Virus record (IMG/VR): IMGVR_UViG_3300045912_000789
Location: 107,910-171,909 of that record
Direction: 5' to 3' (one strand)
DNA: 64,000 nucleotides
DNA from: a virus
Shown here: positions 418-52,164 of the stretch, in pieces
Position numbering within the stretch: position 1 is the first letter of the stretch
How the letters are laid out: every line of letters starts with the position of its first letter
The notes under the pieces: generated by a model
What the model saw: only the letters and a program-made list of their open reading frames with translations
Told to the model about the DNA's origin: nothing
The model's database searches: none
Position numbers and translations under genes: made by a program

Positions 418-2198
418 TGCACACGAAGCGCGCATACTTCGCCGGGGAGCACGACGGAGAACCCCTCGTCCAGATCGTGCGCCCCGGCGAGCAGGTCAAG
501 ACGGCGTCCTTCATGATGCCGTCCGTGCAGTCGTTCATCGATCGGCTGACACCAGATCCCCGCTACACGTACGTCCTCGTCAACGCGATGGGGTACAGCG
601 AGTTCTACGGCTCGAACTCCAACCGCGACTGGTACGGCCACAACCAGCACCTCGACTTCAACGGGCTGCTGCACTCGCCGCCGGACTTCGGCAAGGACTA
701 CGAGACCGACAAGATGCAGGGCCTGGCGTGGCCCTACGGCTTCCCCAGCTACTACGGCGCGACCGTCTACGCCCACCACAAGAACACCGATCCGCAGCAG
801 CTCGGGTTCGGAGACGTGATCTACGTCGCCCCGAATCCGATCATGAAGCGCATCGAGCTGGTCGAGCGCGTGTTCAACGAGGAGGCCCAGAAGAAGGGGC
901 ACACCTCGATCCTGGAACGAATCGCCGCCGGAGAGCGGGTCGACGTCTCGATGGGCTGCAAGGTGCCCTTCGACTTCTGTTCGATCTGCACCGACTGGGC
1001 ACTCGTCAAGAAGGCCTGGAAGACCTTCAATCCCGACGAGCATCGCCACCCCGGCATCGCGATCCTGCACTTCCACAAGACGGTCCAGCCCATCCGGGGG
1101 CTCGCGATTACCCGCAAGGACTACTGCGAGCACATGCTCCAGATCCCCGGGAAGATCCTACCCGACGGCCGCAAGGTCTTCGTCTACAACGACTTCCCCC
1201 GCTTCTTCGACATCAGCTTCGTGCTCGTCGGTGCAGATCGCACTGCGCGTGTGATGTGGCACCTCGGGTCGACGAAGCCGACGGAGGGGACGACGGCGGG
1301 TCCGTGGGCCAAGCGCGAGAACAGTATCGTGCGGCTGCTGGAGAACCTCCTCAACAAGACATCGGCGATCAACATCGCCTCGATGGAGAAGGAGATCCCC
1401 GACGGTTTCGCCCAAGCGGTGAAGCACGACAGCGACACCGCGCCCGACATCAGCGGGACCCTGACGGTGGTCCTGGACGGAGCCGAGGACCGGAAGCTGA
1501 TGGCGAAGAAGATCCTCACGGCGCTCGCCGTGTTGGGCATCGTGCCGTCCCCGAGGGAGTTCCAGACCCTCGCCCTCACCCACGTGCCGGGCGGTGACCT
1601 GATCAAGAAGGCGCTCGACGAGAAGGGGGTGGTCTTCGACACCTCGGTCGGCGGGATCGACGACACCTTCAGCGTCAGCGAGAAGCTCTACGACGCCAAG
1701 CTCACGCAGGCGTTCGCCCCGCTGATGTCCGAGCGGTCGAGCTTCGACCCCTTCCTGACCGAGCGCCTGACCAGCTTCGAGCCGAAGACGGCGTCCGCAC
1801 CTGCGATGCCGATCCGCACGGAACTCCTCGACAAGCTGGCGTCCCAGTACAACGGCTACCGGATCTCTACGCTGGAGAACGCCGGGGATCTCTTCCCGAA
1901 GAGCGCCGAGTTCCTGGGTGCCCAGACGGTCGCCAAGATGGGCGGGAAGGGGATCGGCCTGGCCGCTCTTCTCCTCGGTCTGGGGCCCGTGATATCTTTG
2001 CTTTCGTCGCACCTGCGTAGCAGGCGTGAAGAAGGGCAGCAGATCGGTACCATGGCTTCGTTCGTCGCCGACAATCCGAGCTTCGTGACCATCACGACGA
2101 TCGGCGCCGGTCTGCGAGCCGCCATGGCCATCGACAAGGCCGGAGGCCTGGTCCAAGCTGCGCGCTCTGTCGTCACGGCTGCACGAGGGGTGCTCTGA
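417..2198 (+). CDS. HK97-type capsid maturation (prohead) protease with long C-terminal extension
   Basis: 593 residues. Residues about 110-285 carry the layout of the HK97/S78 prohead protease family: a catalytic-type His in YAHHKN (H120/H121), then DVSMG with the candidate nucleophile S178, then FFDISFVLVGADRTA matching the conserved strand after the active site. Such enzymes cleave scaffold and capsid proteins in the prohead. An insertion after the Ser holds C181, C188, C191, C237 and H239, which could bind a metal; this is unusual for the family. The C-terminal 300 residues are unlike a protease: they contain K-T/L-A-S tetrapeptides (also at residues 28-31) and a hydrophobic Gly/Leu segment near nt 1942-2010, so a scaffold or internal-protein function may be fused. 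It lies upstream of the head proteins, as expected. Protease role is likely; the C-terminal role is unknown. Confidence 0.72.
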   Translation: MHTKRAYFAGEHDGEPLVQIVRPGEQVKTASFMMPSVQSFIDRLTPDPRYTYVLVNAMGYSEFYGSNSNRDWYGHNQHLDFNGLLHSPPDFGKDYETDKMQGLAWPYGFPSYYGATVYAHHKNTDPQQLGFGDVIYVAPNPIMKRIELVERVFNEEAQKKGHTSILERIAAGERVDVSMGCKVPFDFCSICTDWALVKKAWKTFNPDEHRHPGIAILHFHKTVQPIRGLAITRKDYCEHMLQIPGKILPDGRKVFVYNDFPRFFDISFVLVGADRTARVMWHLGSTKPTEGTTAGPWAKRENSIVRLLENLLNKTSAINIASMEKEIPDGFAQAVKHDSDTAPDISGTLTVVLDGAEDRKLMAKKILTALAVLGIVPSPREFQTLALTHVPGGDLIKKALDEKGVVFDTSVGGIDDTFSVSEKLYDAKLTQAFAPLMSERSSFDPFLTERLTSFEPKTASAPAMPIRTELLDKLASQYNGYRISTLENAGDLFPKSAEFLGAQTVAKMGGKGIGLAALLLGLGPVISLLSSHLRSRREEGQQIGTMASFVADNPSFVTITTIGAGLRAAMAIDKAGGLVQAARSVVTAARGVL

Positions 2199-8842: not shown

Positions 8843-10597
8843 ATGAGCCACTACGCAGAACTGGACCAGGAGATCGTCGCTCTCGGAAACGGGGCGACTT
8901 CGGGCATCTCGCGCGCCGACGCGACGGTGTTCGTCCACGCGCTGCGCAAGCTCGCCGCGCAGGGCGCGCCGGCACCGGATGCCGACCTCGCCGAGCACGC
9001 GACCGAGGTCGCGATGGGCGAGGAGGCTTCGCCCGCCGAGGCCGCGATGCACACGCAGGCCGGGGTGCCGGACGAGAGCGGCCACCTCGAAGGCGAGTTC
9101 GCCGTCCCGCTCGACCAGGTCGTCATGACCCTCGCGCAGATCGTCTCGAACAGCATGCGGCAGCACACCGCGTACTCGTTCTACGGCGAGATGATGCGAG
9201 ATCTCGGGCGCGGCGAGCTGGCCGAGCTGTTCGACGAGCAGGGCAAGGACGAGATGAAGGAGATGAAGTACTTCCTTCGTCGGATGTCCGTGCTCCACCC
9301 GGGCGGCGTGCCGATCCCGGTGGCGCCGACGCCGGAGCCCAGCGCCGACGTCTCGGTCGCACTGCGCTACCTCATCGCCGGCGAGCAGCAGGCGATCGTC
9401 CTGTTCAAGACGCTGCACTCGATGCTCGGGGACAACCCGATGAAGTACACCATCGAGCAGACGATGACAGACGCCCAGGAGCACCTCGATCGTCTCTGGC
9501 AGTACATGCCGGCGACCGAGGCTCCGAAGCAGGCCGGCGCCAAGATCGCGAGCGTCATCACGCGCATGAAGCTCGCGGCGCGCACCGGGGCAGAGACCGC
9601 GCTCGGTCAGGCACTCCAGCAGGGCGTCGAGAAGCCCACGGCGAGCAAGCAGGCGTCGCCCCAGTGGCCCTCGCCGAGCCCCGGGGCGATCCCCGTGGGG
9701 CAGCCCGGCACTGAGCCGCTCAGCACGGTCATCGGTCGCGAGGCGCTGCTCCAGCAGGCGCAGCTCATGAACGAGAACCAGGACCTGCGTGCGCGCATGG
9801 ACCAGGCCGCTCAGCAGCAGCTCATGGCGCAGCAGCAGCTCGAAAGCCTCGGCGCGGAGAACGAGAACCTCCAGATGCAGGCCATGCAGGCCAGCGATCA
9901 GGCGCAGATGGCGACCGAGCAGGCGCAGCTCTCCAGCGAGCAGGCGGCGGCGCAGGCGGACGCGAAGATGCGGCTCGCGATCCGCGTGCAGCAGCTCCGC
10001 CAGAACCTCGCCGACATCGTCTCGGCCGACCCCGTCCAGGAGGAGGGTGTCGGCTTCGGCGAGCAGGCCGGCCCCGGCAGCGTCGCGACGTCGTCGCAGC
10101 AGAACCAGATGGCCCAGCAGGCCGCCGCCATGGACCCCACCGGCGGCACCGGCGGAGCCCCCACCCAGGAGGCCGCCGAGGAACAGCAGCAGGCCGCCAA
10201 CGCGCAGCAGGAGGCTCAGCAGCAGACCGCCCAGGCCCAGCAGAAGACCAAGGCGGACAGCTCGAAGCCGAAGGGCAAGGGCGGCACGACGGTCTCCGTG
10301 AAGACCTCGGGCATGCCCTCGCTCGTCAAGAAGCCGCTCGTCGAGGCGGGTCACGCGATCGGCGAGGGCATCGGGCAGCACCTCGAACAGGCCGGCAGCG
10401 ACGCCATGCGCGGCGGGCTGAAGACGCTCAAGGAGCGCGTCCGCGCCTACGGCAAGGACCCGAAGGTCGTCGGCGGGGCTGCGCTCGCCGCCGGCGGCTA
10501 CGTCGGCGCGAAGGCGCACGGCATCAAGAAGCAGCACGAGCGCGACCGAACCCAGAAGGACATCCTGAAGGCCGTCCAGTCGATGGCGAACCGCTGA
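8843..10597 (+). CDS. Virion-module protein with degenerate bacterioferritin-like domain
   Basis: 584 residues. Residues about 97-222 align with the four-helix bundle of E. coli bacterioferritin recalled from memory; the first 45 residues align without a gap and share DEMK plus Asn, Tyr, Met, Gly and Leu landmarks. Of the six di-iron ligands, the counterparts of E51, E94 and H130 remain (E137, E181, H214), while E18, H54 and E127 are Ser104, Glu140 and Ala211. Iron oxidation is therefore doubtful; a structural use is more likely. Residues 250-470 are a Gln/Ala-rich coiled coil, then Lys-rich and Gly/Ala-rich segments (GGAALAAGGYVGAKAHG). K-I-A-S occurs at 234. The context is structural; the protein may be internal or ejected. 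Confidence 0.68.
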   Translation: MSHYAELDQEIVALGNGATSGISRADATVFVHALRKLAAQGAPAPDADLAEHATEVAMGEEASPAEAAMHTQAGVPDESGHLEGEFAVPLDQVVMTLAQIVSNSMRQHTAYSFYGEMMRDLGRGELAELFDEQGKDEMKEMKYFLRRMSVLHPGGVPIPVAPTPEPSADVSVALRYLIAGEQQAIVLFKTLHSMLGDNPMKYTIEQTMTDAQEHLDRLWQYMPATEAPKQAGAKIASVITRMKLAARTGAETALGQALQQGVEKPTASKQASPQWPSPSPGAIPVGQPGTEPLSTVIGREALLQQAQLMNENQDLRARMDQAAQQQLMAQQQLESLGAENENLQMQAMQASDQAQMATEQAQLSSEQAAAQADAKMRLAIRVQQLRQNLADIVSADPVQEEGVGFGEQAGPGSVATSSQQNQMAQQAAAMDPTGGTGGAPTQEAAEEQQQAANAQQEAQQQTAQAQQKTKADSSKPKGKGGTTVSVKTSGMPSLVKKPLVEAGHAIGEGIGQHLEQAGSDAMRGGLKTLKERVRAYGKDPKVVGGAALAAGGYVGAKAHGIKKQHERDRTQKDILKAVQSMANR

Positions 10598-19995: not shown

Positions 19996-22080
19996 TCAGG
20001 TGCCGACGTGGACGTTGAAGATGCGCTGCTTCTTGCCCTGCTGGGCGCGGACGAGGAACGTGTCCTTCTTGGTCGACGAGAAGCCCAGGCCGGCCAGATG
20101 CCCGTCCGTGGGTCGGCACTTGGTCTTGTCGCCGATGATCTCGAACACCTTCCGGTGCTCTTCGAGCCGCGGGTGGAGGAACTCGTTGTAGAACCCGCGC
20201 ATGTCTTCGTCGCTCTTCGCCCCCTCCAGGACGAAGAAGGTGTGCTTGTTCCCCACGGCGTTGTCGCCCCAGTAGTTCGGGCTGAGCATCACCGTGTTGA
20301 CCTTCACGTACCGCTCGGTCGTCAGGCCCCACTTCTCCTGCGAGATGTTGGCGGACGTGATGCCGGGATCGCCGGCCTCGACGCGCTCCACGACGCCGTT
20401 CTTCAGGTACAGCGTCACGACCGCGACGTCCTGTCGATTGCGGACCTGCTTGTTGTATGAGTAGTGCGTGAGCTTCCCCGCGTTCTCCACCTCGATGACG
20501 AACCCGGGGTTGTTGCTCTCGCGCTGGTTGTAGTTGTTCACGACGACCCGGTACGCGCCATCCGGCGGCTTGGCGGACCACACCACGTTCTCGACCGGCT
20601 CTCTCGTCTGGCCGCTGCCAGCGTTCATGTCGACGTCGAGCACGCCGCCGGTCCAGCCGCGCTTGTTCCCGAAGAAGATGTGCTCGTGCAGGCCTCGCAC
20701 CCCGCGACCCGCCGGCTCGTGGATGTGGATGTCCAGGTCGTCGTAGTTGAACCACGACAGCGAGACACGAAGGAGCGCGCTGTCGACCTTGCCGCCGGCC
20801 TTCTTCACGCGCTCCTTGATCGAGTCGGCGACGTTGCCACCGTAGGACCACGCGAAGTCGTTGCTCCAGCGGAAGAGCTGCTTGGGCTCCGGGTGCACCG
20901 GCGCCGTCAGAGCCATGAGGTTGCCGAGGTGCCGACCGGTGAAGAAGACCTCCATCGCCTGCGTCTCGGGGAGGACGCGGGTCATGAAGTCCTCGATCGA
21001 GATGTCCTCGGCGCGCTCCTCGTCCTTCGCGCTGCTCTGCTTCGTCTGGGCATGCTTCATGAGCACGTCGCCGATGCCGCCCTTCATCAGAGGCCGGGCG
21101 GCGCCGTCGACCCACAGCACGTCCTTCACCGACACGTCGCTCATGACGGCGAACCGGCGCTCCAGAGCGGGCTCCAGGCCCAGCGTCTCGATCGTTTCCA
21201 TCGCCTTCTTCACCATGCCGGGCGTGATGAGGGCGGTGGTCCGCTTGTAGTTCTGCGGGGCGACCTTCGTCTCGAAGCTGCGCACCGCACGCTCGATGTC
21301 CTGGCCCTCGGAGAGATCCTGGACGAGGGTGCCGATGACGGTGTTGCGGAACCGAGCAGCCGGGCTACCTGCGTTCGACCAGACGAAGAGGGAACGCTCG
21401 GCCGGCGAGAGATCGGTCGCCTGGTAGCGTCGCTGCATCTTCTGGAACTCGACGACCGCTCGCTTGTGCTCCTCGCCGCGGTAGAGGCTGTTGCTCTCGA
21501 TGAGCGAGAGCACCGTCTCGACGGCACCGTAGGAGAGCTCGACGAGCCCTCGCTCGAAGACCTGGACCGTCGTCCGGTAGTTGCCGCGATCGGTGTCTGG
21601 CAGGGCGGAGCGGAAGCCACGGGGGATCTCGCCCGTGTAGAAGTGATCCCAGGTCAGCGCCTTCTGCGACTCCTTGTCGAGCGAGCGGGTCTGCTGCGCT
21701 CCGAACTGCGTCTCGTTCTTCCCGACTCGGAAGATGTCGCGGATGCCTGCCGAGATCACGGCCTGCCGAAGCTCAGTCGCGACGATGCTGTACGGACCAG
21801 GCGCGCTCTCCGCGGCGCGGTCCCAGATGGTGATCACCTTCCCGTTCGAGATGGTGATCACGCTGCCGGCTCGGCGGATGAACTGCTTGCAGCACGAGCA
21901 GTCGTGCTCGGTGCGCTTCTTGAAGATCGGGTTGGTTCCTTCGGGGAAAGAGCTGAGGTACTTCGACCAGAGATCGTCCCCGTCCAGGTTGGCGACGAAG
22001 ACGGCGTTGATCTCGCCGTCCTTCGTGATGCGCTGGAAAGTGTCGGCGACGACGCGGGCGAACGCGGGGAAGTGGTTCAT
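19996..22080 (-). CDS. Large protein with C-terminal YfaP/DUF2135-like domain
   Basis: 694 residues. The start MNHFPAF is chosen for AGAAGGACC just upstream; a longer reading would run through a terminator. Residues about 435-530 show the YfaP/DUF2135 pattern: SLSWFNYDDLDIHIHEPAGR, GGVLDVDMNAGSG, EPVENVVW, and PDGAYRVVVNNYNQRE. This beta-sandwich occurs in TerY-type, von Willebrand-linked and phage proteins and is thought to bind ligands or partners. The N-terminal 400 residues are unrecognised; they include a C-x-CC motif at residues 61-64. A TATCAG promoter motif lies 46 bp upstream. Confidence 0.75.
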   Translation of the reverse strand: MNHFPAFARVVADTFQRITKDGEINAVFVANLDGDDLWSKYLSSFPEGTNPIFKKRTEHDCSCCKQFIRRAGSVITISNGKVITIWDRAAESAPGPYSIVATELRQAVISAGIRDIFRVGKNETQFGAQQTRSLDKESQKALTWDHFYTGEIPRGFRSALPDTDRGNYRTTVQVFERGLVELSYGAVETVLSLIESNSLYRGEEHKRAVVEFQKMQRRYQATDLSPAERSLFVWSNAGSPAARFRNTVIGTLVQDLSEGQDIERAVRSFETKVAPQNYKRTTALITPGMVKKAMETIETLGLEPALERRFAVMSDVSVKDVLWVDGAARPLMKGGIGDVLMKHAQTKQSSAKDEERAEDISIEDFMTRVLPETQAMEVFFTGRHLGNLMALTAPVHPEPKQLFRWSNDFAWSYGGNVADSIKERVKKAGGKVDSALLRVSLSWFNYDDLDIHIHEPAGRGVRGLHEHIFFGNKRGWTGGVLDVDMNAGSGQTREPVENVVWSAKPPDGAYRVVVNNYNQRESNNPGFVIEVENAGKLTHYSYNKQVRNRQDVAVVTLYLKNGVVERVEAGDPGITSANISQEKWGLTTERYVKVNTVMLSPNYWGDNAVGNKHTFFVLEGAKSDEDMRGFYNEFLHPRLEEHRKVFEIIGDKTKCRPTDGHLAGLGFSSTKKDTFLVRAQQGKKQRIFNVHVGT

Positions 22081-36743: not shown

Positions 36744-37238
36744 ATGAACGTCTTCTTCAACTGGCAGCGCATCAGGGAGATCACGGATCTCTACCTGCTG
36801 AAGGCTTCTTCGTCTCTGCGCGAAGGGCTCTTCTTCTTTCCCCACGCGTTCGGCTTCATGGCCAGCGTGGACGAGGAACAGAACGGGCTGCACGTCGCAG
36901 TCCCGCCCAAGATGGTTCGAGATCGTGCGATGTTCGACGGCTTCGTTCGCTACGTCGCGCACAGTCTTCCTCCGCAGGGACGGATCGAGGCCGCAGGCTT
37001 CCTGGTCCTCCTTCCGCGAGAACTTGCAGCGGAGATCGTAGAGGTCGGTCCTTCGGTCCCCGACGTGAAGCACGACCTCGTGTCGATCTTCCACGTCGAA
37101 CACGTGTTCGACGGCGTCCACACCTGGGTGCTCGATCGCCCCGACGGAGAGTGGAAGCTGGTCGCGACGGGTACGCGCAGCACAATCCCGCCGTGTCTCC
37201 CCACGAGGGCGTACGGCAACACCGTGGGGCAGGCATGA
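36744..37238 (+). CDS. Unknown 164-residue protein
   Basis: ATG lies directly behind the terminator with no clear SD, so the transcript start is uncertain. Alpha/beta protein with aromatic-rich N-terminus (LREGLFFFPHAFGFMASVDE). Its stop overlaps the dCTP deaminase start (ATGA). Not recognised. Confidence 0.58.
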   Translation: MNVFFNWQRIREITDLYLLKASSSLREGLFFFPHAFGFMASVDEEQNGLHVAVPPKMVRDRAMFDGFVRYVAHSLPPQGRIEAAGFLVLLPRELAAEIVEVGPSVPDVKHDLVSIFHVEHVFDGVHTWVLDRPDGEWKLVATGTRSTIPPCLPTRAYGNTVGQA

Positions 37239-37834
37239 ATCTGAGCGATACGACGATCAAGTGGCGGTGGCAGGACCTCTTCCCCGCAGGGCACGGAGAG
37301 AACGACTCGATCGACAAGGACGTGCAGATCCAACCCTCGACGGTGGATCTCCGGCTCGGTCGGGTCTTCTACGTCCGCAAGGATCCGATGCTCACGCCCG
37401 GGATGATCGACCCCCGCACCTCGGACTCGACGAAGTACTTCGAGCGCATCGAGATGGAGGAGGGTAAGCCGATCATCATGTACCCCGGCCTGGCGGGGTT
37501 CATGCTCGGGCAGACGATGGAGTACGTCTCGATCCCTCCGGACCTCGTCGGCTTCGTCGATGGGCGCAGCAGCTACGGTCGCTGGGGCCTGCGCATCCAC
37601 AGCACTGCGGGCCTCATCGACGCGGGGTTCCGAGGGATCATCACCCTGGAGATCTCGCTGGACGGACAGCACCTGATGGAGCTGCATCCCGGCGAACGGA
37701 TCTGCCAGATCCGCTTCGAGAAGCTGGACCAGCCGTCCCGGCGCCCGTACGGGCACGAGACGCGCCGGTCGAAGTACCAGAACCAGACCGGGACTACCCC
37801 GAGTCTGTCGAACAAGGACGGAGAACACACATGA
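37235..37834 (+). CDS. dcd: dCTP deaminase
   Basis: 199 residues. Family motifs: QIQPSTVDLRLG, GRSSYGRWGLRIHSTAGLID, AGFRGIITLEIS with catalytic-type Glu139, and PGERICQIRFEKL. The enzyme deaminates dCTP to dUTP (some also hydrolyse it to dUMP), feeding thymidylate synthesis. ThyX is encoded two genes downstream, forming a coherent dTMP route. The gene is coupled by 4-nt overlaps to both neighbours. Whether it is bifunctional with dUTPase cannot be told from sequence by eye. Confidence 0.87.
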   Translation: MNLSDTTIKWRWQDLFPAGHGENDSIDKDVQIQPSTVDLRLGRVFYVRKDPMLTPGMIDPRTSDSTKYFERIEMEEGKPIIMYPGLAGFMLGQTMEYVSIPPDLVGFVDGRSSYGRWGLRIHSTAGLIDAGFRGIITLEISLDGQHLMELHPGERICQIRFEKLDQPSRRPYGHETRRSKYQNQTGTTPSLSNKDGEHT

Positions 37835-38394: not shown

Positions 38395-39749
38395 ACATCT
38401 ACATCCGAGACGATCTTCCTCCGGAGAGCTTGGCCATGCTCCAGGCTCTCTACTCCCGCTCGCCGGCCTCGGTCGTCGAGCACATCAAGAAGGTCGAAGC
38501 GGTCGGCGCCGATCGCTTCATGAAGAACTACTACGTGGGCTACGGCCACCGCAGCATCGGCGACTGCGGGAGCACCACGCTCTTCGTCGAGGGCGTCTCC
38601 ATGCTCGCGGCGAAGGCGATCCAGGATTGGCCGCTCTACCGCGGTCAGGAGGCCTCGACCCGCTACATGGACTTCTCCACCGTCAAGATCGAGGATCCGG
38701 TCGGTACGCTGGGCAGCCGTGAGATCCAGGACGCGTGGATGACCTTCTACCACGCGGCCCCGGACGCCGTACGTCAGCACCTGCTGGAGAAGTACCCCCG
38801 CCAGCCCGACGAGAAGGAGGACGTCTACGAGCGTGCGATCAACGCCCGCAAGTTCGACATCCTTCGCGCGTTCCTGCCCGCCGGGGCCACCACGAACCTC
38901 TCGTGGCACGTGGACCTGCGCCAGGCGGACGACCACCTGAAGTGGCTCACCGAGCACCCGGATCCGACGATTCGCCAGCTCTCGTACAAGATCCAGGACG
39001 CGCTCGACGAGAAGTACCCGTCGAGCTTCATCGAGCCCGAGGAGCCCGACGAGAAGAAGCGCCTCGCGCGAGAGCAGGCGAACGAGGCAGCGCGCGCGTG
39101 GCGGGGTCAGATGGCCGACCGCTACACCTACTTCGACGACGACATCCATCTCGCGCACGACCCGAAGCCTCGGCCGGTCTCGGTGCAGACGTCGATCCAC
39201 GACTACCACCTCCACGAGGTCGCGGATCTTCTCGCGTCGCGTCCGCGGCGCGCCGAGCTGCCGCCGTGGATGTCGAAGTACGGGACGCTCCGGTCGAGCT
39301 TCCTCCTCGACTTCGGCTCGTTCCGGGATCTCCAGCGCCACCGCAACGGCGTCGTCCGGATGCCGCTGCTCACCACGCGCTGGGGCTTCCACGCGTGGTA
39401 CCTCTCCGAGCTACCCGAGGCGCTCGTCAAGGAGGCGAAGCGTCTGGTCGAGGTCCAGAAGACCCGGCTGCGTGCACTCGATCTCTCGGGGGTCCCGAAG
39501 GTCGTCCAGCAGTACTACTGCGCGATGGGCTTCATGGTGGCCTGCGAGGTGACCCAGCCGCTGCCGGCGTGGGTCTACCGAGTCGAGCTGCGCACGAGCC
39601 CCAGCGTGCACCCCACGCTGCGGTCGGTGACGCAGGAGGAGGCGCGCCAGTTCAAGGAGCGCTTCCCCAAGATCGCACTGCACGCGGACATGAGCCCGGA
39701 CACCTGGGACACCCGCCGCGGGAAGCAGACGATCATCGAGAAGGCGTGA
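38391..39749 (+). CDS. thyX: Double-length ThyX-type (flavin-dependent) thymidylate synthase
   Basis: 452 residues, about twice a normal ThyX. The N-terminal half carries YGHRSIGDCGSTTLFVEGVS and QEASTRYMDF (residues 86-95), matching the ThyX substrate/flavin segment but with WPLYRG instead of RHR just before it. The C-terminal half (from about residue 280) repeats the fold and supplies an RHR at about 316-318 (LQRHRNGVVR). It looks like a fused tandem in which each half keeps part of the active site. ThyX makes dTMP from dUMP using folate and NADPH. Downstream of dcd; followed by the tmRNA gene. Confidence 0.82.
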   Translation: MNIYIRDDLPPESLAMLQALYSRSPASVVEHIKKVEAVGADRFMKNYYVGYGHRSIGDCGSTTLFVEGVSMLAAKAIQDWPLYRGQEASTRYMDFSTVKIEDPVGTLGSREIQDAWMTFYHAAPDAVRQHLLEKYPRQPDEKEDVYERAINARKFDILRAFLPAGATTNLSWHVDLRQADDHLKWLTEHPDPTIRQLSYKIQDALDEKYPSSFIEPEEPDEKKRLAREQANEAARAWRGQMADRYTYFDDDIHLAHDPKPRPVSVQTSIHDYHLHEVADLLASRPRRAELPPWMSKYGTLRSSFLLDFGSFRDLQRHRNGVVRMPLLTTRWGFHAWYLSELPEALVKEAKRLVEVQKTRLRALDLSGVPKVVQQYYCAMGFMVACEVTQPLPAWVYRVELRTSPSVHPTLRSVTQEEARQFKERFPKIALHADMSPDTWDTRRGKQTIIEKA

Positions 39750-39765: not shown

Positions 39766-39775
39766 TGCTATAAGC
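39766..39775 (+). promoter_or_regulatory. TGCTATAAGC motif upstream of tmRNA
   Basis: TATAAG form of the recurrent motif, 35 bp before the mature tmRNA 5' end. A hairpin (39781-39806, AGCGCG/CGCGCT plus GAGA/TCTC) lies between the two and could guide 5' processing. Confidence 0.5.
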
Positions 39776-39809: not shown

Positions 39810-40215
39810 GGGCCTGTAACGGTTTCGACGTGGTGATCGACGACTGTGTAGCGTGCCGGGGTTGATCGGTGGGCCCCGTTATCAAGCCGATCGTCTGTAG
39901 CTGCGAACGACAACAGCTACGCTCCGGCCGCTCTCGCGGCCTGAGCCGTTCGGGTGAGGAGGCCGGCGGCCTCACCCGGGCGTCATTCAGCCGGAGCAAC
40001 CTGCGCGGCGCACTCGGTGCGCAGGCCAAGGCAGTAGACCCGAGCGCTGGTGGAGGGCACACGAATCACCGTGCGCCCCTCCGCGAGCCTGATCGAGGCA
40101 TGAGACGCGGGCGCCCTACGGGGCCAAGGTTCTCGGAATCCTCAAGTATCGATCTACGCACGTAGACGCACAGAAGAAGGCATCACGGACCCGGGTTCGA
40201 CTCCCGGCGGGTCCA
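39810..40215 (+). ncRNA. ssrA: tmRNA (transfer-messenger RNA)
   Basis: About 406 nt and complete. The 5' GGGCCTG (39810-39816) pairs with CGGGTCC (40208-40214) as the acceptor stem; GGTTTCGACGTGG follows the 5' end as in other tmRNAs. The T arm is CCGGG-TTCGACT-CCCGG (40191-40207), and the discriminator is A40215; the genome continues TCA, so CCA must be added after transcription. The tag frame starts at the resume codon GCG 39903 and ends at TGA 39942-39944: ANDNSYAPAALAA, with the typical AND start and ALAA degron end. tmRNA with SmpB rescues stalled ribosomes and marks proteins for ClpXP. It fills the 664-bp gap between coding genes. Confidence 0.95.
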
Positions 40216-40284
40216 TCAACGAAGGGAGGGTAGGATCATGCGCTCCGCCGGCTAAACCCGGCGATCACAACGCCCATCCCGCGA

Positions 40285-40325
40285 GGGGCCCACCGGCGCA
40301 GCCGGCTCGGGCCCTTCGTCTTTCG
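40285..40325 (+). terminator. tmRNA terminator
   Basis: GGGGCCC/GGGCCC outer stem with inner CCGGC/GCCGG, followed by TTCGTCTTTCG. A smaller hairpin (CGCCGG/CCGGCG, about 40242-40262) lies between it and the RNA. Confidence 0.8.
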
Positions 40326-40335: not shown

Positions 40336-40413
40336 TCGTGGAGGGGGACCGCGCACAGCTCTCCTCGGAGCCCAGCTCCCTGGTGCGCGGTCTCCCTCTG
40401 CTGAAAGGACGCC

Positions 40414-40725
40414 ATGAAGTACAACAATGTAGCGATCATCCCGGAGCCCGGGCTGGATGGGATGTCGTACCCGGTGCGCCGGATCGGCCTGGCACTGGGC
40501 TTCGGCAGCAAGGGAGGCAACCTCTCCCACCACATCAACGGGAAGTACAAGAAGATCTTCCGGAAGGACCTGCACTACACCGTGCGGTCGCACCGCATGA
40601 TCTACATGCCGATCGGCCCGCTCCTCACGCTGCTCGGGCTCGTCTCTCACGACGAGCCGAAGTACGCTGCGGCTGTCCTTCGCTTCCTCCCGAAGCTGCT
40701 CGCCTACCACAAGGAGATCGCGTGA
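40414..40725 (+). CDS. Unknown 103-residue protein
   Basis: SD GAAAGGA. Basic alpha/beta protein (GFGSKGGNLSHHINGKYKKI) with a helical C-terminus. The pattern could suit a small DNA-binding domain but nothing is diagnostic. Coupled to the next gene (GTGA). Confidence 0.6.
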   Translation: MKYNNVAIIPEPGLDGMSYPVRRIGLALGFGSKGGNLSHHINGKYKKIFRKDLHYTVRSHRMIYMPIGPLLTLLGLVSHDEPKYAAAVLRFLPKLLAYHKEIA

Positions 40726-41642
40726 ACGTCACCTACATCGCCCGGAACGGCAAGGCCGGGTTCAAGTCCTCGGGCACCGGCCCGCTCCCCCCGCCGATCG
40801 GCGGACGCCACATCGACAAGACCCTCTGGCTGGTGTCGCAGCTCGAAATGCCCTCGGGCTTCGGCAGCATCCAGAACTGCCACGACAAGGCCGTGATGTC
40901 GGCCGGCATGCTGCACCACATCGCGGTGGTGCCGAAGCAGATGACCCAGGGCTCGCTGTGGAAGCTCCTGATGCGCATGCGCAGCAGCAACAGCGAGGCC
41001 GTCGTCGCTCTCTACGATCGCCTGGAGAAGAAGAAGAACTGGCAGATCGGTCGGGACGGCGTTCTGCGCGACATGAAGACCGGGGCCGCCGTCACCGGCC
41101 GCGCCATCATGAACGAGATCACGCAGAGCGACGATGCCGTGGTTCCTCCGCCCGGGGAGCCGGGTCACGCGGTCGCGAAGGAGTGGGCGCAGATGTTCGC
41201 TGCGGCGTTCGCCGACTCCTCCACCTACGCCATCCAGGAGGCGTTCGCGGCCGAGTGGATGCTCCAGAGCTACATGGCCGAGGAGACCGTGGGGTACGTC
41301 CGGGCGACCGGCGAGAAGGGCATCACCAGCGCCATCGCGGCCCACCGCACGGACCTCGTGCCGTACGCGGATCTCACGATGGCGGTCTACCACTCCTTCA
41401 GCGCGAACGCGCCGTCGGTGGCGAAGCAGTGCCTCGTCGAGATGAACTCGAAGACCGGTCTGAAGCCGTTCGAGTGGTGCCAGGCGCTGGTCAAGAAGCT
41501 CGGCACGCGGAAGTACAAGAACTGGGCCGATCGCGAGGACAACACCTCGCGCTACGACCGCACGCGCCTGGCTGCCCACCGCTCGGGCATCTGGGATCCC
41601 GCCACCGTGATCGCCGTCATGCCGGAGAACTTCCGTGGCTGA
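40722..41642 (+). CDS. 306-residue protein, possibly lysozyme-like fold
   Basis: GTG start overlapping the previous stop. Residues about 45-85 (MPSGFGSIQNCHDKAVMSAG, then MLHHIAVVPKQMTQGSLWKL) recall phage muramidase-like domains in which a Glu/Asp-containing loop is followed by a conserved S-x-G-x-x-H segment, but the key catalytic residue is unclear. The remainder is helical. The role as a wall enzyme is a weak inference. Confidence 0.5.
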   Translation: MNVTYIARNGKAGFKSSGTGPLPPPIGGRHIDKTLWLVSQLEMPSGFGSIQNCHDKAVMSAGMLHHIAVVPKQMTQGSLWKLLMRMRSSNSEAVVALYDRLEKKKNWQIGRDGVLRDMKTGAAVTGRAIMNEITQSDDAVVPPPGEPGHAVAKEWAQMFAAAFADSSTYAIQEAFAAEWMLQSYMAEETVGYVRATGEKGITSAIAAHRTDLVPYADLTMAVYHSFSANAPSVAKQCLVEMNSKTGLKPFEWCQALVKKLGTRKYKNWADREDNTSRYDRTRLAAHRSGIWDPATVIAVMPENFRG

Positions 41643-41856
41643 GACGGCGGACTTCCCCGGCTGCGTCGTGGTCGGAGATCACGGCAAGACCCTGATGATC
41701 AAGGTGCCGCTCAACAAGGACGGCACCAAGACGAAGACCGTGTCGATCCCCAAGTCGCAGATCGACGACGACAGCGAAGTCTACGACGCCGACAAGAACA
41801 GCACCGGCAAGCTCATCATCCCGATGTGGCTGGCCGAGGATAGAGGACTGATCTGA
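41635..41856 (+). CDS. Unknown 73-residue protein
   Basis: GTG start 8 bp inside the previous gene. Small beta-rich domain with Lys/Thr-rich strands (TKTKTVSIPKSQIDDDSEVY). Overlaps the following gene by 1 nt. Not recognised. Confidence 0.55.
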   Translation: MAETADFPGCVVVGDHGKTLMIKVPLNKDGTKTKTVSIPKSQIDDDSEVYDADKNSTGKLIIPMWLAEDRGLI

Positions 41857-42461
41857 TGAGGACCGAGAGGATCTACCTGGCGTCGAGCTGGCGCAACATC
41901 TACCAGCCTGACCTGATCACCATGCTCCGCAGCAACGGGTTCGAGGTCTACGACTTCCGCAACCCGCAGACCGGCGGCCCCCAGGGCTACCGCACGCCCG
42001 CGCAGGGCTTCTCCTGGCGTCAGGTCGACGCGGACTGGGGCCGCAGTCGGGAGAACCTGCTCCACCGCTACCGCGAGATGCTGAAGCATCCCGTGGCGCA
42101 GGAGGGCTTCGAGTCCGACTTCAACGCCATGAAGTGGGCGGACACCTGCGTGATCGCTTTGCCCTCGGGTCGCAGCGCGCACCTGGAGTGCGGCTGGATG
42201 GCCGGTGCCGGCAAGAAGATCGTCGTCTACATGCCGCCGGCGACGCAGATCTGCGTGGAGTGCCGGGGCAGCAACTGGGTCGCCGGCAACGACTTCATGC
42301 GCAACGACCAGTGCAAGCCCTGCGAGGGCACCGGTCACCAGCTCCTCTGGAACTTCGAGCCCGAGCTGATGTACATGATCGGAGACAGCAACCCCGACAA
42401 CGTGCTCGCGTTCAGCCACGACGAGATGCTGAGGCTGCTCCGCGGCACGGAGGCAACATGA
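41856..42461 (+). CDS. Nucleoside 2-deoxyribosyltransferase-like protein with DnaJ-type zinc-finger insert
   Basis: 201 residues. The fold markers of nucleoside 2-deoxyribosyltransferases are visible: RIYLASSWRN at the N-terminus and CVIALPSGRSAHLECGWMAG with candidate nucleophile E111, followed by GKKIVVYM. Such enzymes swap bases on deoxyribonucleosides or hydrolyse dNMPs. Unusually, a zinc finger (C133-x2-C136 and C153-x2-C156-EGTG, the CxxCxGxG style of DnaJ) is inserted before the C-terminal helix. It fits the dNTP-pool functions nearby. Family likely; substrate unknown. Confidence 0.68.
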   Translation: MRTERIYLASSWRNIYQPDLITMLRSNGFEVYDFRNPQTGGPQGYRTPAQGFSWRQVDADWGRSRENLLHRYREMLKHPVAQEGFESDFNAMKWADTCVIALPSGRSAHLECGWMAGAGKKIVVYMPPATQICVECRGSNWVAGNDFMRNDQCKPCEGTGHQLLWNFEPELMYMIGDSNPDNVLAFSHDEMLRLLRGTEAT

Positions 42462-49108: not shown

Positions 49109-50227
49109 ATGCGAACCATCACCATCATGTTCATGCTCACGCTACTGATCGGCTGCGGTGAGCAGTCGGTCGTTCCCATGACCGACGCCGGCGTGATCGG
49201 CGACGGTTCCGTCCAGGAGGATGCCGATGCGGCAGAGGAAGCTGACGCGGGAGATCGAGACAGCTCGACGCCGGACGCGGGGACGCCTGACAGCGGAACT
49301 CGTTCGGATGCCGGCCGCGACAGCGGCACGGACAGCGGCATGCCGGATGCCGGCACGCCGGACTCCAGCACGCCTGGAGACGCGGGGACCGACAGCTCGG
49401 TTCCCGACGCCGGCACTGACGCGGCGGTAGACGCCGGCCCGCCGCGCCCCGTGGGTGCTGCGGTCGACGTCTCTGGCTCGCGTTGCGCGCTGGACAGCGC
49501 TGGCTCGGTGTGGTGCTGGGGCCGTTGGACGCCCGTCGAGGACGTGCGCCTGATGGGTGCCGGCTTCGATAGCGTCTCGGGCTCCTGCGCGCTCCGCGGC
49601 AGCGAGGTCTGGTGCGCCGAGTTCACCACCGAGACCATGGTCCCGGTGATCGAGGGCTCGGCAACGCTGGAGGTCGATACGATCTCCGAGTACAGCGACC
49701 TGGCCCGCGGCTGCGGCCATCGCCTGACCCCGGAGGGCTGGGGCGAGGCGGTGTGCTGGACCGACGGTGGCAGCGTCGCCCGCGAGGGCGGCACCGGGGC
49801 CACCCTCGTGGCGGTCTCGGCGACCAGCCCGCGCGAGGTCTCCGCCATCGGCGGCTCGTGGGAGGCGTACGATGTCAACCCGCCGAGCACGTGCCGCAGC
49901 GATGGCACCCGAGCGTCGTGCGTGCGAGACACCGGCGGGTCGTACGACGCGGCGCGGCCCGCGGGTGACCACTACACCTTGGGCTTCGGCATGAGCTGCG
50001 CGCACAACGCAGGCATGACGACGTGCTCGACCGCCATCGCGGGTCTCTCGACGGCCTACGTCGACGACGGGACCTTCCACGACCAGTCGGTCTCCTGGCC
50101 GATCGGAACGTGGTCGACGGTCGGCGGCGTGCCGCGCTACCACGAGGCGCGCGGCATCTGCATCAGCGGGAACACCCTGCGGTGCTACGAGGACAGCGGC
50201 GCGCTGGCGTACACTGTGAACTGGTGA
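49109..50227 (+). CDS. Myxobacterial-type lipoprotein with Asp/Ala/Gly/Pro linker and RCC1-like repeats
   Basis: 372 residues. Signal peptide MRTITIMFMLTLLIGCG has a lipobox LIGC, so Cys16 would be lipidated after signal peptidase II. Residues about 25-115 are a degenerate linker of DAG, PDSG and PDAG units. After it come repeats with Cys pairs (RCALDSAGSVWCWG, SCALRGSEVWCAEF and later C-x(8-9)-C units) like RCC1-type repeats of secreted proteins. This architecture is typical of Myxococcota lipoproteins. A phage-made lipoprotein often blocks receptors or DNA entry by rival phages (lysogenic conversion or superinfection exclusion); here that is inferred. It has its own promoter motif and terminator. 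Confidence 0.8.
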   Translation: MRTITIMFMLTLLIGCGEQSVVPMTDAGVIGDGSVQEDADAAEEADAGDRDSSTPDAGTPDSGTRSDAGRDSGTDSGMPDAGTPDSSTPGDAGTDSSVPDAGTDAAVDAGPPRPVGAAVDVSGSRCALDSAGSVWCWGRWTPVEDVRLMGAGFDSVSGSCALRGSEVWCAEFTTETMVPVIEGSATLEVDTISEYSDLARGCGHRLTPEGWGEAVCWTDGGSVAREGGTGATLVAVSATSPREVSAIGGSWEAYDVNPPSTCRSDGTRASCVRDTGGSYDAARPAGDHYTLGFGMSCAHNAGMTTCSTAIAGLSTAYVDDGTFHDQSVSWPIGTWSTVGGVPRYHEARGICISGNTLRCYEDSGALAYTVNW

Positions 50228-50960: not shown

Positions 50961-51508
50961 ACATCAACGAGTGGGCGACCCACGTTCACCAGCTCGCCGT
51001 CGAGAAGGGCTGGTGGGAGAAGCAGATCAAGGAGGGCAAGGTCGATCCCGAGCTGGTGAAGGAGAAGGTCCCGGAGAAGCTGAACCTCATCCATGATGAG
51101 ATCTCTGAGGGCTCGGGCGAGGCCCGGCAGGATCTGTGGGACACCTACTGGAACCTGCGGGACGGCCGCATCACCCTCGGCGAGATCAAGAAGTACGTGG
51201 ACGATGCCTGGGAGGGCGACGGGAACGCCCAGGTCGAGATCATGCGGCTCATCCACCAGGCGGGCATGGACGCGAAGGCGCTGCCTGCGCCCATCTCGAC
51301 CATGGACCGCAGCGTGTTCTTCACGCAGCTCGTCCACCACATCAACCTGCGGTACAAGCCGGAGGGGTTCGGGATCGAGGTGATCGACGGCGTCATCCGG
51401 AGCCTCGATCTCCTCGAAGCGCTTGGCTACAACACCGAGGCGCTCATGGCAATGAAGCACACCTACAACAAGACCCGGCCGCATCGGCACGGCAACAAGA
51501 GGTTCTGA
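50957..51508 (+). CDS. MazG-like nucleotide pyrophosphohydrolase
   Basis: 183 residues. The MazG metal-binding helices are visible: KLNLIHDEISEGSGEARQ in the first half and GIEVIDGVIRSLDLLEALG in the second, followed by the family's C-terminal KHTYNKTRPHRHGNKRF. A 60-residue insertion separates the helices. MazG-type enzymes hydrolyse NTPs or dNTPs, and some phage forms act on alarmones or abnormal nucleotides. Joined by overlaps to its neighbours. Confidence 0.75.
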   Translation: MNINEWATHVHQLAVEKGWWEKQIKEGKVDPELVKEKVPEKLNLIHDEISEGSGEARQDLWDTYWNLRDGRITLGEIKKYVDDAWEGDGNAQVEIMRLIHQAGMDAKALPAPISTMDRSVFFTQLVHHINLRYKPEGFGIEVIDGVIRSLDLLEALGYNTEALMAMKHTYNKTRPHRHGNKRF

Positions 51509-52164
51509 TGATCTACGTGAACTTCGATCTGGAGACGACGGGACCGTCTCCGGACAAGAACGCCATCCTTCAGATCGGTGCAGTCGCCCACGACTCGTCG
51601 AGCTGGGCGGAGATCGGGCACTTCAGTGGCAACATCGCCATCCCGCCGAACCGCGAGTGGGACCCCGAGACTCGCACGTGGTGGGAGACCGACGAAGAGG
51701 CCGGCAAGGACAAGCTGGAGCTGGTGATGCAGAGCCCGTGGTCCACCGGCTGGGCCATGAAGGCCTTCTTCGACTGGCTGATCTACCTGCCGAACTGCCA
51801 GCTCACGACGACGTCGGACCGGCGCATCGCGTTCGTCGCCAATCCGATCGCCTACGACATGCCCTTCCTTCGGTCGTACATGCGCGAGTACGTCGGCGCG
51901 ACGTGGGAAGAGTGGGCTCAGGCGAACAAGGCCGGGCTCGGGGGCATCGACCTGCCCACCCTGGCGATGTGCGTCATGGGCGCCGACACCCGAGACGACA
52001 TCCCGGCCTATCCCGACGCTCGTCGTCGGATGTGGCCTGAGCGGTGGTCCCCCAAGGGCCTGCCGCACACGCACGTCGCGATCGACGATGCCCGTCACCA
52101 GGCCTTCGCCTTCATCTCGATGATGCGTGAGCTGGAGGAGATCCGTTCGAGGAGGATGTTCTGA
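51508..52164 (+). CDS. DEDD-family exonuclease (RNase T/Orn-like)
   Basis: 218 residues, ATG overlapping the previous stop (TGATG). Exo I VNFDLETTGPSPDKNAILQI (D7, E9), Exo II FVANPIAYDMPFLRS, Exo III THVAIDDARHQAFAF. Differs from the DnaQ-like enzyme at 29969 in spacing and has a Trp-rich insertion (EWDPETRTWWETDE), so the two are not recent duplicates. RNA or DNA 3' end trimming is likely; substrate unknown. Confidence 0.8.
   Translation: MIYVNFDLETTGPSPDKNAILQIGAVAHDSSSWAEIGHFSGNIAIPPNREWDPETRTWWETDEEAGKDKLELVMQSPWSTGWAMKAFFDWLIYLPNCQLTTTSDRRIAFVANPIAYDMPFLRSYMREYVGATWEEWAQANKAGLGGIDLPTLAMCVMGADTRDDIPAYPDARRRMWPERWSPKGLPHTHVAIDDARHQAFAFISMMRELEEIRSRRMF

Follow-up and report, generated by a model that had tools for sequence, protein, structure and literature searches.

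This locus raises the question of whether a phage encodes a complete and working tmRNA (ssrA), and what such an RNA would do in infection. The window analyzed here was a 64-kb stretch (bases 107,910-171,909), the last part of the 171,909-base IMG/VR virus record G000, which was linear and may be incomplete. The record encoded a major head protein, a tail sheath, and a terminase large subunit, bearing out the earlier assignment of this DNA to a phage, together with GyrB, a family A DNA polymerase, and a beta-beta' fusion RNA polymerase; the record represents a large uncultured contractile-tailed phage. The megablast comparison of 20 kb with known phages gave no match, and judged by this search the phage group has no close relatives at the DNA level among the known phages covered. 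In the RNA polymerase, which was of the multi-subunit type, beta and beta' were fused into a single chain of 2076 aa, Rpb2 domain 6 preceding the Rpb1 domains (record 89735-95965; L006 11735-17965), and RNAP-bearing Caudovirales (PMC7481178) provided a point of comparison for it.

Structure of the tmRNA gene

ARAGORN identified a tmRNA at 39810-40215 on the plus strand, with tag ANDNSYAPAALAA and stop TGA (coding part: gene positions 94-135), as the sole RNA gene that it found in the 64-kb window. Rfam model RF00023 matched 39810-40218 over its full length (model 1-374 of 374) with 119.9 bits (E 2.8e-46) against a curated cut-off of 47 bits, and no other Rfam family, riboswitches included, was above threshold in the window. 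The first-pass annotation had described a complete tmRNA with acceptor stem, T arm, and 13-codon tag, to be checked with the Rfam model: the structure was accepted by that model, and ARAGORN, RF00023, and the sequence agreed on the description. The fold was better than those of 100/100 shuffles (z -3.3). The gene was composed of the following parts:

39810..40215 (+): complete one-piece tmRNA (ssrA) gene, 406 nt up to discriminator A (ARAGORN, RF00023, covariation in relatives)
39810..39816 (+): acceptor stem 5' strand GGGCCUG (RF00023, sequence)
39903..39944 (+): tag reading frame, 13 codons ANDNSYAPAALAA plus TGA (ARAGORN, sequence, same frame in relatives)
39903-39905 (+): resume codon GCG, with A at -4 (39899) and U at -5
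40191..40207 (+): T arm CCGGG-UUCGACU-CCCGG (RF00023, sequence)
40208..40214 (+): acceptor stem 3' strand CGGGUCC, with discriminator A at 40215 (RF00023, sequence)
40216..40218 (+): genomic TCA 3' of discriminator A (sequence)

The features of an alanine tRNA-like domain were thus present: besides the T arm and discriminator A, the acceptor stem carried G3-U70, formed by G39812 and U40212, a wobble that serves as the alanine identity element in both tRNA-Ala and tmRNA. An internal tag frame with resume codon, stop, and A at -4 was likewise present; in E. coli tmRNA, U-5 and A-4 before the resume codon set the frame. The molecule also carried the conserved GGUUUCGAC, and in the region of the expected pseudoknot ring the nested helices covaried (nested pairs only being scored).

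The TCA in place of CCA at the 3' end, singled out in the first-pass annotation, was real but ordinary, because the related tmRNA genes had TCA, AAT, CTA, ACC, TCC, or TTA at this site and encoded CCA in no case, and 22 of the 30 Myxococcota-like tmRNA genes collected also lacked an encoded CCA (present in the other 8). CCA addition by a host enzyme is the standard route, and the mature CCA of the window tmRNA is presumably added post-transcriptionally.

Gene neighborhood and flanking signals

The tmRNA started 61 bases beyond the stop codon of a ThyX-like gene, and its surroundings were as follows:

37235..37834 (+): dCTP deaminase-like gene (Pfam DCD, 1.1e-34)
38436..39749 (+): ThyX-like gene, 437 aa, directly upstream of the tmRNA (Pfam Thy1, 1.1e-12; 51-52% identity in L304/L305)
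39766..39774 (+): weak extended -10-like element TGCTATAAG, between the ThyX stop and the tmRNA (by eye; promoter scan negative; not conserved in relatives)
40281..40317 (+): G+C-rich hairpin 3' of the tmRNA, a possible terminator with no strict T-run (fold; terminator scan negative)
40341..40398 (+): strong inverted repeat before the next gene, 16-nt arms, 94% complementary (fold -45.7 kcal/mol, z -5.4)
40722..41642 (+): gene downstream of the tmRNA, 306 aa, no PHROG (33-35% identity and order kept in G003/G002)
41856..42461 (+): nucleoside deoxyribosyltransferase-like gene (phrog_12607, 8.1e-44)

The earlier statement that the tmRNA lies among phage metabolic genes was right, since the dCTP deaminase, ThyX-like, and nucleoside deoxyribosyltransferase genes surrounded it. 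The promoter and terminator scans around the tmRNA found nothing, and the inverted repeat at 40341-40398 had no further copies in the window beyond chance. The window additionally encoded a protein with an Rv2179c-like 3'-5' exoribonuclease domain (51508-52164; Pfam 2.7e-10), an RNase with a possible part in mRNA decay during infection.

No tRNA gene was found in the whole 172-kb record, so the tmRNA was not the passenger of a tRNA array. The first-pass annotation had advised looking for smpB elsewhere in the genome: the PF01668 search, in which the controls were recovered, detected no SmpB in G000 or six relatives, and host SmpB would therefore be needed.

Related phages

Relatives were found via a conserved protein encoded at 19996-22080 on the minus strand (phrog_1735; 694 aa), which had no Pfam match, occurred in 511 known phage records at <60% identity, and was a useful marker for locating related large phages. 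Three relatives had a tmRNA above the Rfam cut-off, namely G003 (IMGVR_UViG_3300009093_000036; 195 kb), G002 (IMGVR_UViG_3300049792_000048; 196 kb), and G001 (392 kb), and so did the more distant relative G016. G003 and G002 displayed the flanking gene order of the window, with flanking proteins mostly at 33-52% amino acid identity and about 400-430 bases between the ThyX homologue and the tmRNA; a search of the viral contigs for close relatives of the two flanking proteins (38436-39749 and 40722-41642) gave none. The related phages G005, G007, G008, and G013 had no detectable tmRNA, and it is therefore dispensable for the wider phage group. ThyX-tmRNA adjacency was rejected as a general rule: ThyX occurred in only 5 of the 35 other tmRNA-related virus records, about 3 kb away at least where measured. 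The G001 phage had about 43 tRNA matches, and its tmRNA (L306 9642-10042, minus strand) had a 26-codon tag frame ANNVVSLFGNVVANDNGTAEPLPLAA with a second AND start inside.

Phylogeny of the tmRNA lineage

The window tmRNA shared 64-71% RNA identity with the tmRNAs of G003 and G002, and pattern searches added further lineage members: G452 (249 kb) and the short contigs L080, L113, and L301, whose tmRNAs were near-identical. In the maximum-likelihood tree, the window, G003, G002, L080, and G452 were grouped (99/95) apart from 48 bacterial tmRNAs. The G001 tmRNA fell outside this five-phage group (97/91), a placement that was unsure because of its long branch, and its sequence possibly joins the lineage. 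The phage lineage was not nested among the bacterial tmRNAs sampled, a set that was picked by sequence pattern and may therefore have missed a bacterial parent. The best identity to a bacterial tmRNA was about 56%, with no close bacterial parent found.

Three other phage tmRNAs (L292, L296, and L297) fell within Myxococcota branches of the tree and were therefore separate acquisitions. The comparison with myxobacterial ssrA genes proposed in the first-pass annotation showed the link to be only suggestive: the lineage was not nested in the Myxococcota sampled, and the tmRNA DNA search of 379 Myxococcota genomes returned only 62-75-base matches at the 3' end. The window also encoded an Asp/Ala/Gly-rich lipoprotein-like protein (49109-50227) with a signal ending LLIGCGE and long Asp/Ala/Gly repeats, a style common in Myxococcota. 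Together with the origin of most pattern hits, this sequence hints at a Myxococcota host. On contig 146 of the Myxococcota genome G412 (L318, L321), the intact tmRNA gene and a displaced 3' piece of such a gene were separated by about 23 kb, an arrangement that likely reflects an island integrated at ssrA.

Covariation and tag sequences

The covariation analysis used five aligned clade sequences, of which two were nearly identical. Compensatory change was found in 27 pairs, compared with 12.0 on average across 500 shuffles, the fairer control though one that ignores relatedness, and with 1-9 when partners were slid. The paired cells amounted to 93% vs 38-45% in the slid alignments, which flatter the structure because it was derived from that same alignment. 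G3-U70 was GU in 5/5 aligned clade sequences, and every member of the supported lineage had U-5/A-4 ahead of its resume codon.

The lineage tags were ANDNSYAPAALAA, ANDSSYAQPVLANAA (twice), ANDNSYASAAIAA, and ANDSSYDQLAQAA, all of which shared the frame of the window tag and had an Ala-Ala end. The G003/G002 tag ANDSSYAQPVLANAA had a 6-nt insertion with the frame kept, and it ended with ANAA, not LAA, which made delivery to ClpXP less sure for these two phages; the ARAGORN tag ATPSPFSRTRPEPSAGRVA for G002 was a misreading of the aligned frame. The phage tags had 13-15 codons vs mostly 10-12 in bacteria (13 in L318-L320), and the window tag was unlike every bacterial tag in the comparison set. 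The kept helices, the invariant G3-U70, and the tag changing in frame argued for a working messenger part plus a working tRNA part. The sequence of the window gene points to a working tmRNA rather than an attachment-site remnant or a decoy.

Proposed function and alternative explanations

Judged from sequence features, the gene very probably encodes a functional phage tmRNA that performs ordinary trans-translation with host SmpB, AlaRS, and ClpXP. We infer that the RNA is expressed and charged, that it uses host SmpB, that tagged products undergo proteolysis, and that the phage benefits, as follows. The tmRNA would be transcribed during infection, trimmed by RNase P at the 5' end and by 3' exonucleases, supplied with CCA by a host enzyme, and charged with alanine by host AlaRS via G3-U70; host EF-Tu and SmpB would then bring it into ribosomes stalled on broken mRNAs. 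The ribosome would switch to the phage-encoded tag frame and append A-ANDNSYAPAALAA, the Ala-Ala end of which would target the tagged protein to ClpXP-type proteases; the ribosome would be recycled for phage translation. The gain would probably lie in freeing ribosomes stalled on broken mRNAs in infection, keeping them available while host mRNA breaks down.

Three explanations would leave the RNA without this role. If the phage or an ancestor had integrated in a host tmRNA gene, the sequence could have been kept as attP or via imprecise excision, with no infection role; tmRNA genes are indeed common integration targets (PMC3203893; PMC3029335), and a displaced tmRNA 3' end was found in one bacterial relative (L321). 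The window, however, contained the gene in full, including the tag and the extra helices, instead of a 3' fragment, and no tyrosine integrase was detected in G000-G003 by the PF00589 search, which covered this integrase type only; on these grounds the remnant was rejected, and with the covariation, the conserved place in diverged phages, and the lineage not nested in sampled bacterial tmRNAs also against it, it is very improbable. A decoy tmRNA would agree with the fact that a full tmRNA also binds SmpB and that the phage has no SmpB gene, but the tag frame, resume signals, and messenger-part helices were conserved although needless for a decoy; this reading was discarded and is highly unlikely. 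The patchy presence among wider relatives would fit a recent accidental pick-up of a bacterial gene drifting without selection, against which stood the same position in phages at about 50% protein identity, the gene's own phage lineage, and above all the compensatory changes, which contradicted drift and made this origin barely credible.

Another explanation accepts the same machinery and assigns it a different purpose: the tag would mark host or defence-related broken products for degradation, or the phage tmRNA would replace a host tmRNA cleaved or inhibited in infection, such as by toxin endonucleases that cut tmRNA (PMC5408214). The tag was unlike the bacterial tags compared, longer than most, and variable between phages, and selective host-protein degradation was proposed for another phage (PMC9004378). 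Trans-translation, however, selects by ribosome stalling and not by the owner of the mRNA, for which reason the tag-specific purpose is treated as a rival; it is rather unlikely. A bolder form, in which an old large-phage tmRNA lineage with its own changing, longer tags (ANDNSYAPAALAA, ANDSSYAQPVLANAA, ANDNSYASAAIAA, and ANDSSYDQLAQAA), kept even without tRNAs, would alter the fate of tagged proteins rather than top up host rescue, is quite improbable.

Comparison with known phage tmRNAs

The first-pass annotation had called phage tmRNAs rare; they are uncommon but well documented, with 402 of 18,146 phage genomes carrying one in 2021 (PMC9004378). Because ssrA-carrying phages had also been listed in 2014 (PMC4131195), the window gene belongs to an already known kind. 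What it adds is a diverged, structurally constrained tmRNA lineage common to several large uncultured phages; the added interest lies in a supported lineage with its own changing tags, which offer natural variants for testing the effect on proteolysis, and in a tmRNA retained in a tRNA-free record. This one case of a tmRNA without any tRNA gene separates ribosome rescue from codon supplementation as the reason for phage translation RNAs.

Full-length bacterial RNase P RNA (RF00010) was observed in two other viral contigs: L297 (94 kb; 10235-10577, minus strand, 262 bits) and L302 (102.5 kb; 1630-1970, plus strand, 259 bits). In each it lay inside a large tRNA array also holding a tmRNA (tags ANDNATAFGLAA and ANDNATAYGLAA, respectively), and a phage that supplies RNase P RNA on top of tRNAs and a tmRNA would be a more unusual case than the window tmRNA itself.

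The window gene resembled the bacterial one-piece tmRNA (RF00023) in its acceptor and T arm, its G3-U70 pair, a tag frame that begins with AND and finishes with AA, and a putative multi-helix ring, but differed in length (406 nt vs about 331-374 nt in the bacterial set) and in its 13-codon tag. The tmRNAs of mycobacteriophages Bxz1, Cali, Catera, and Wildcat and of Bacillus phage G (PMC4131195; PMC7474061) were likewise complete tmRNAs in large phages, but of another phage lineage and host; ET08, which has ssrA (PMC4131195), carries about 30 tRNAs (PMC3029335) vs none in the window's record. The ssrA of methylophage Melnitz also lies near thyX, and its authors propose machinery maintenance/rescue or host-protein degradation (PMC9004378); it is a two-piece permuted tmRNA of alphaproteobacterial type placed under a glutamine riboswitch, whereas the tmRNA described here was one-piece, with no Rfam riboswitch in the window. 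The G003/G002 tmRNAs shared with the window both the place after ThyX and the lineage, and differed in the tag ANDSSYAQPVLANAA with its 6-nt in-frame insertion.
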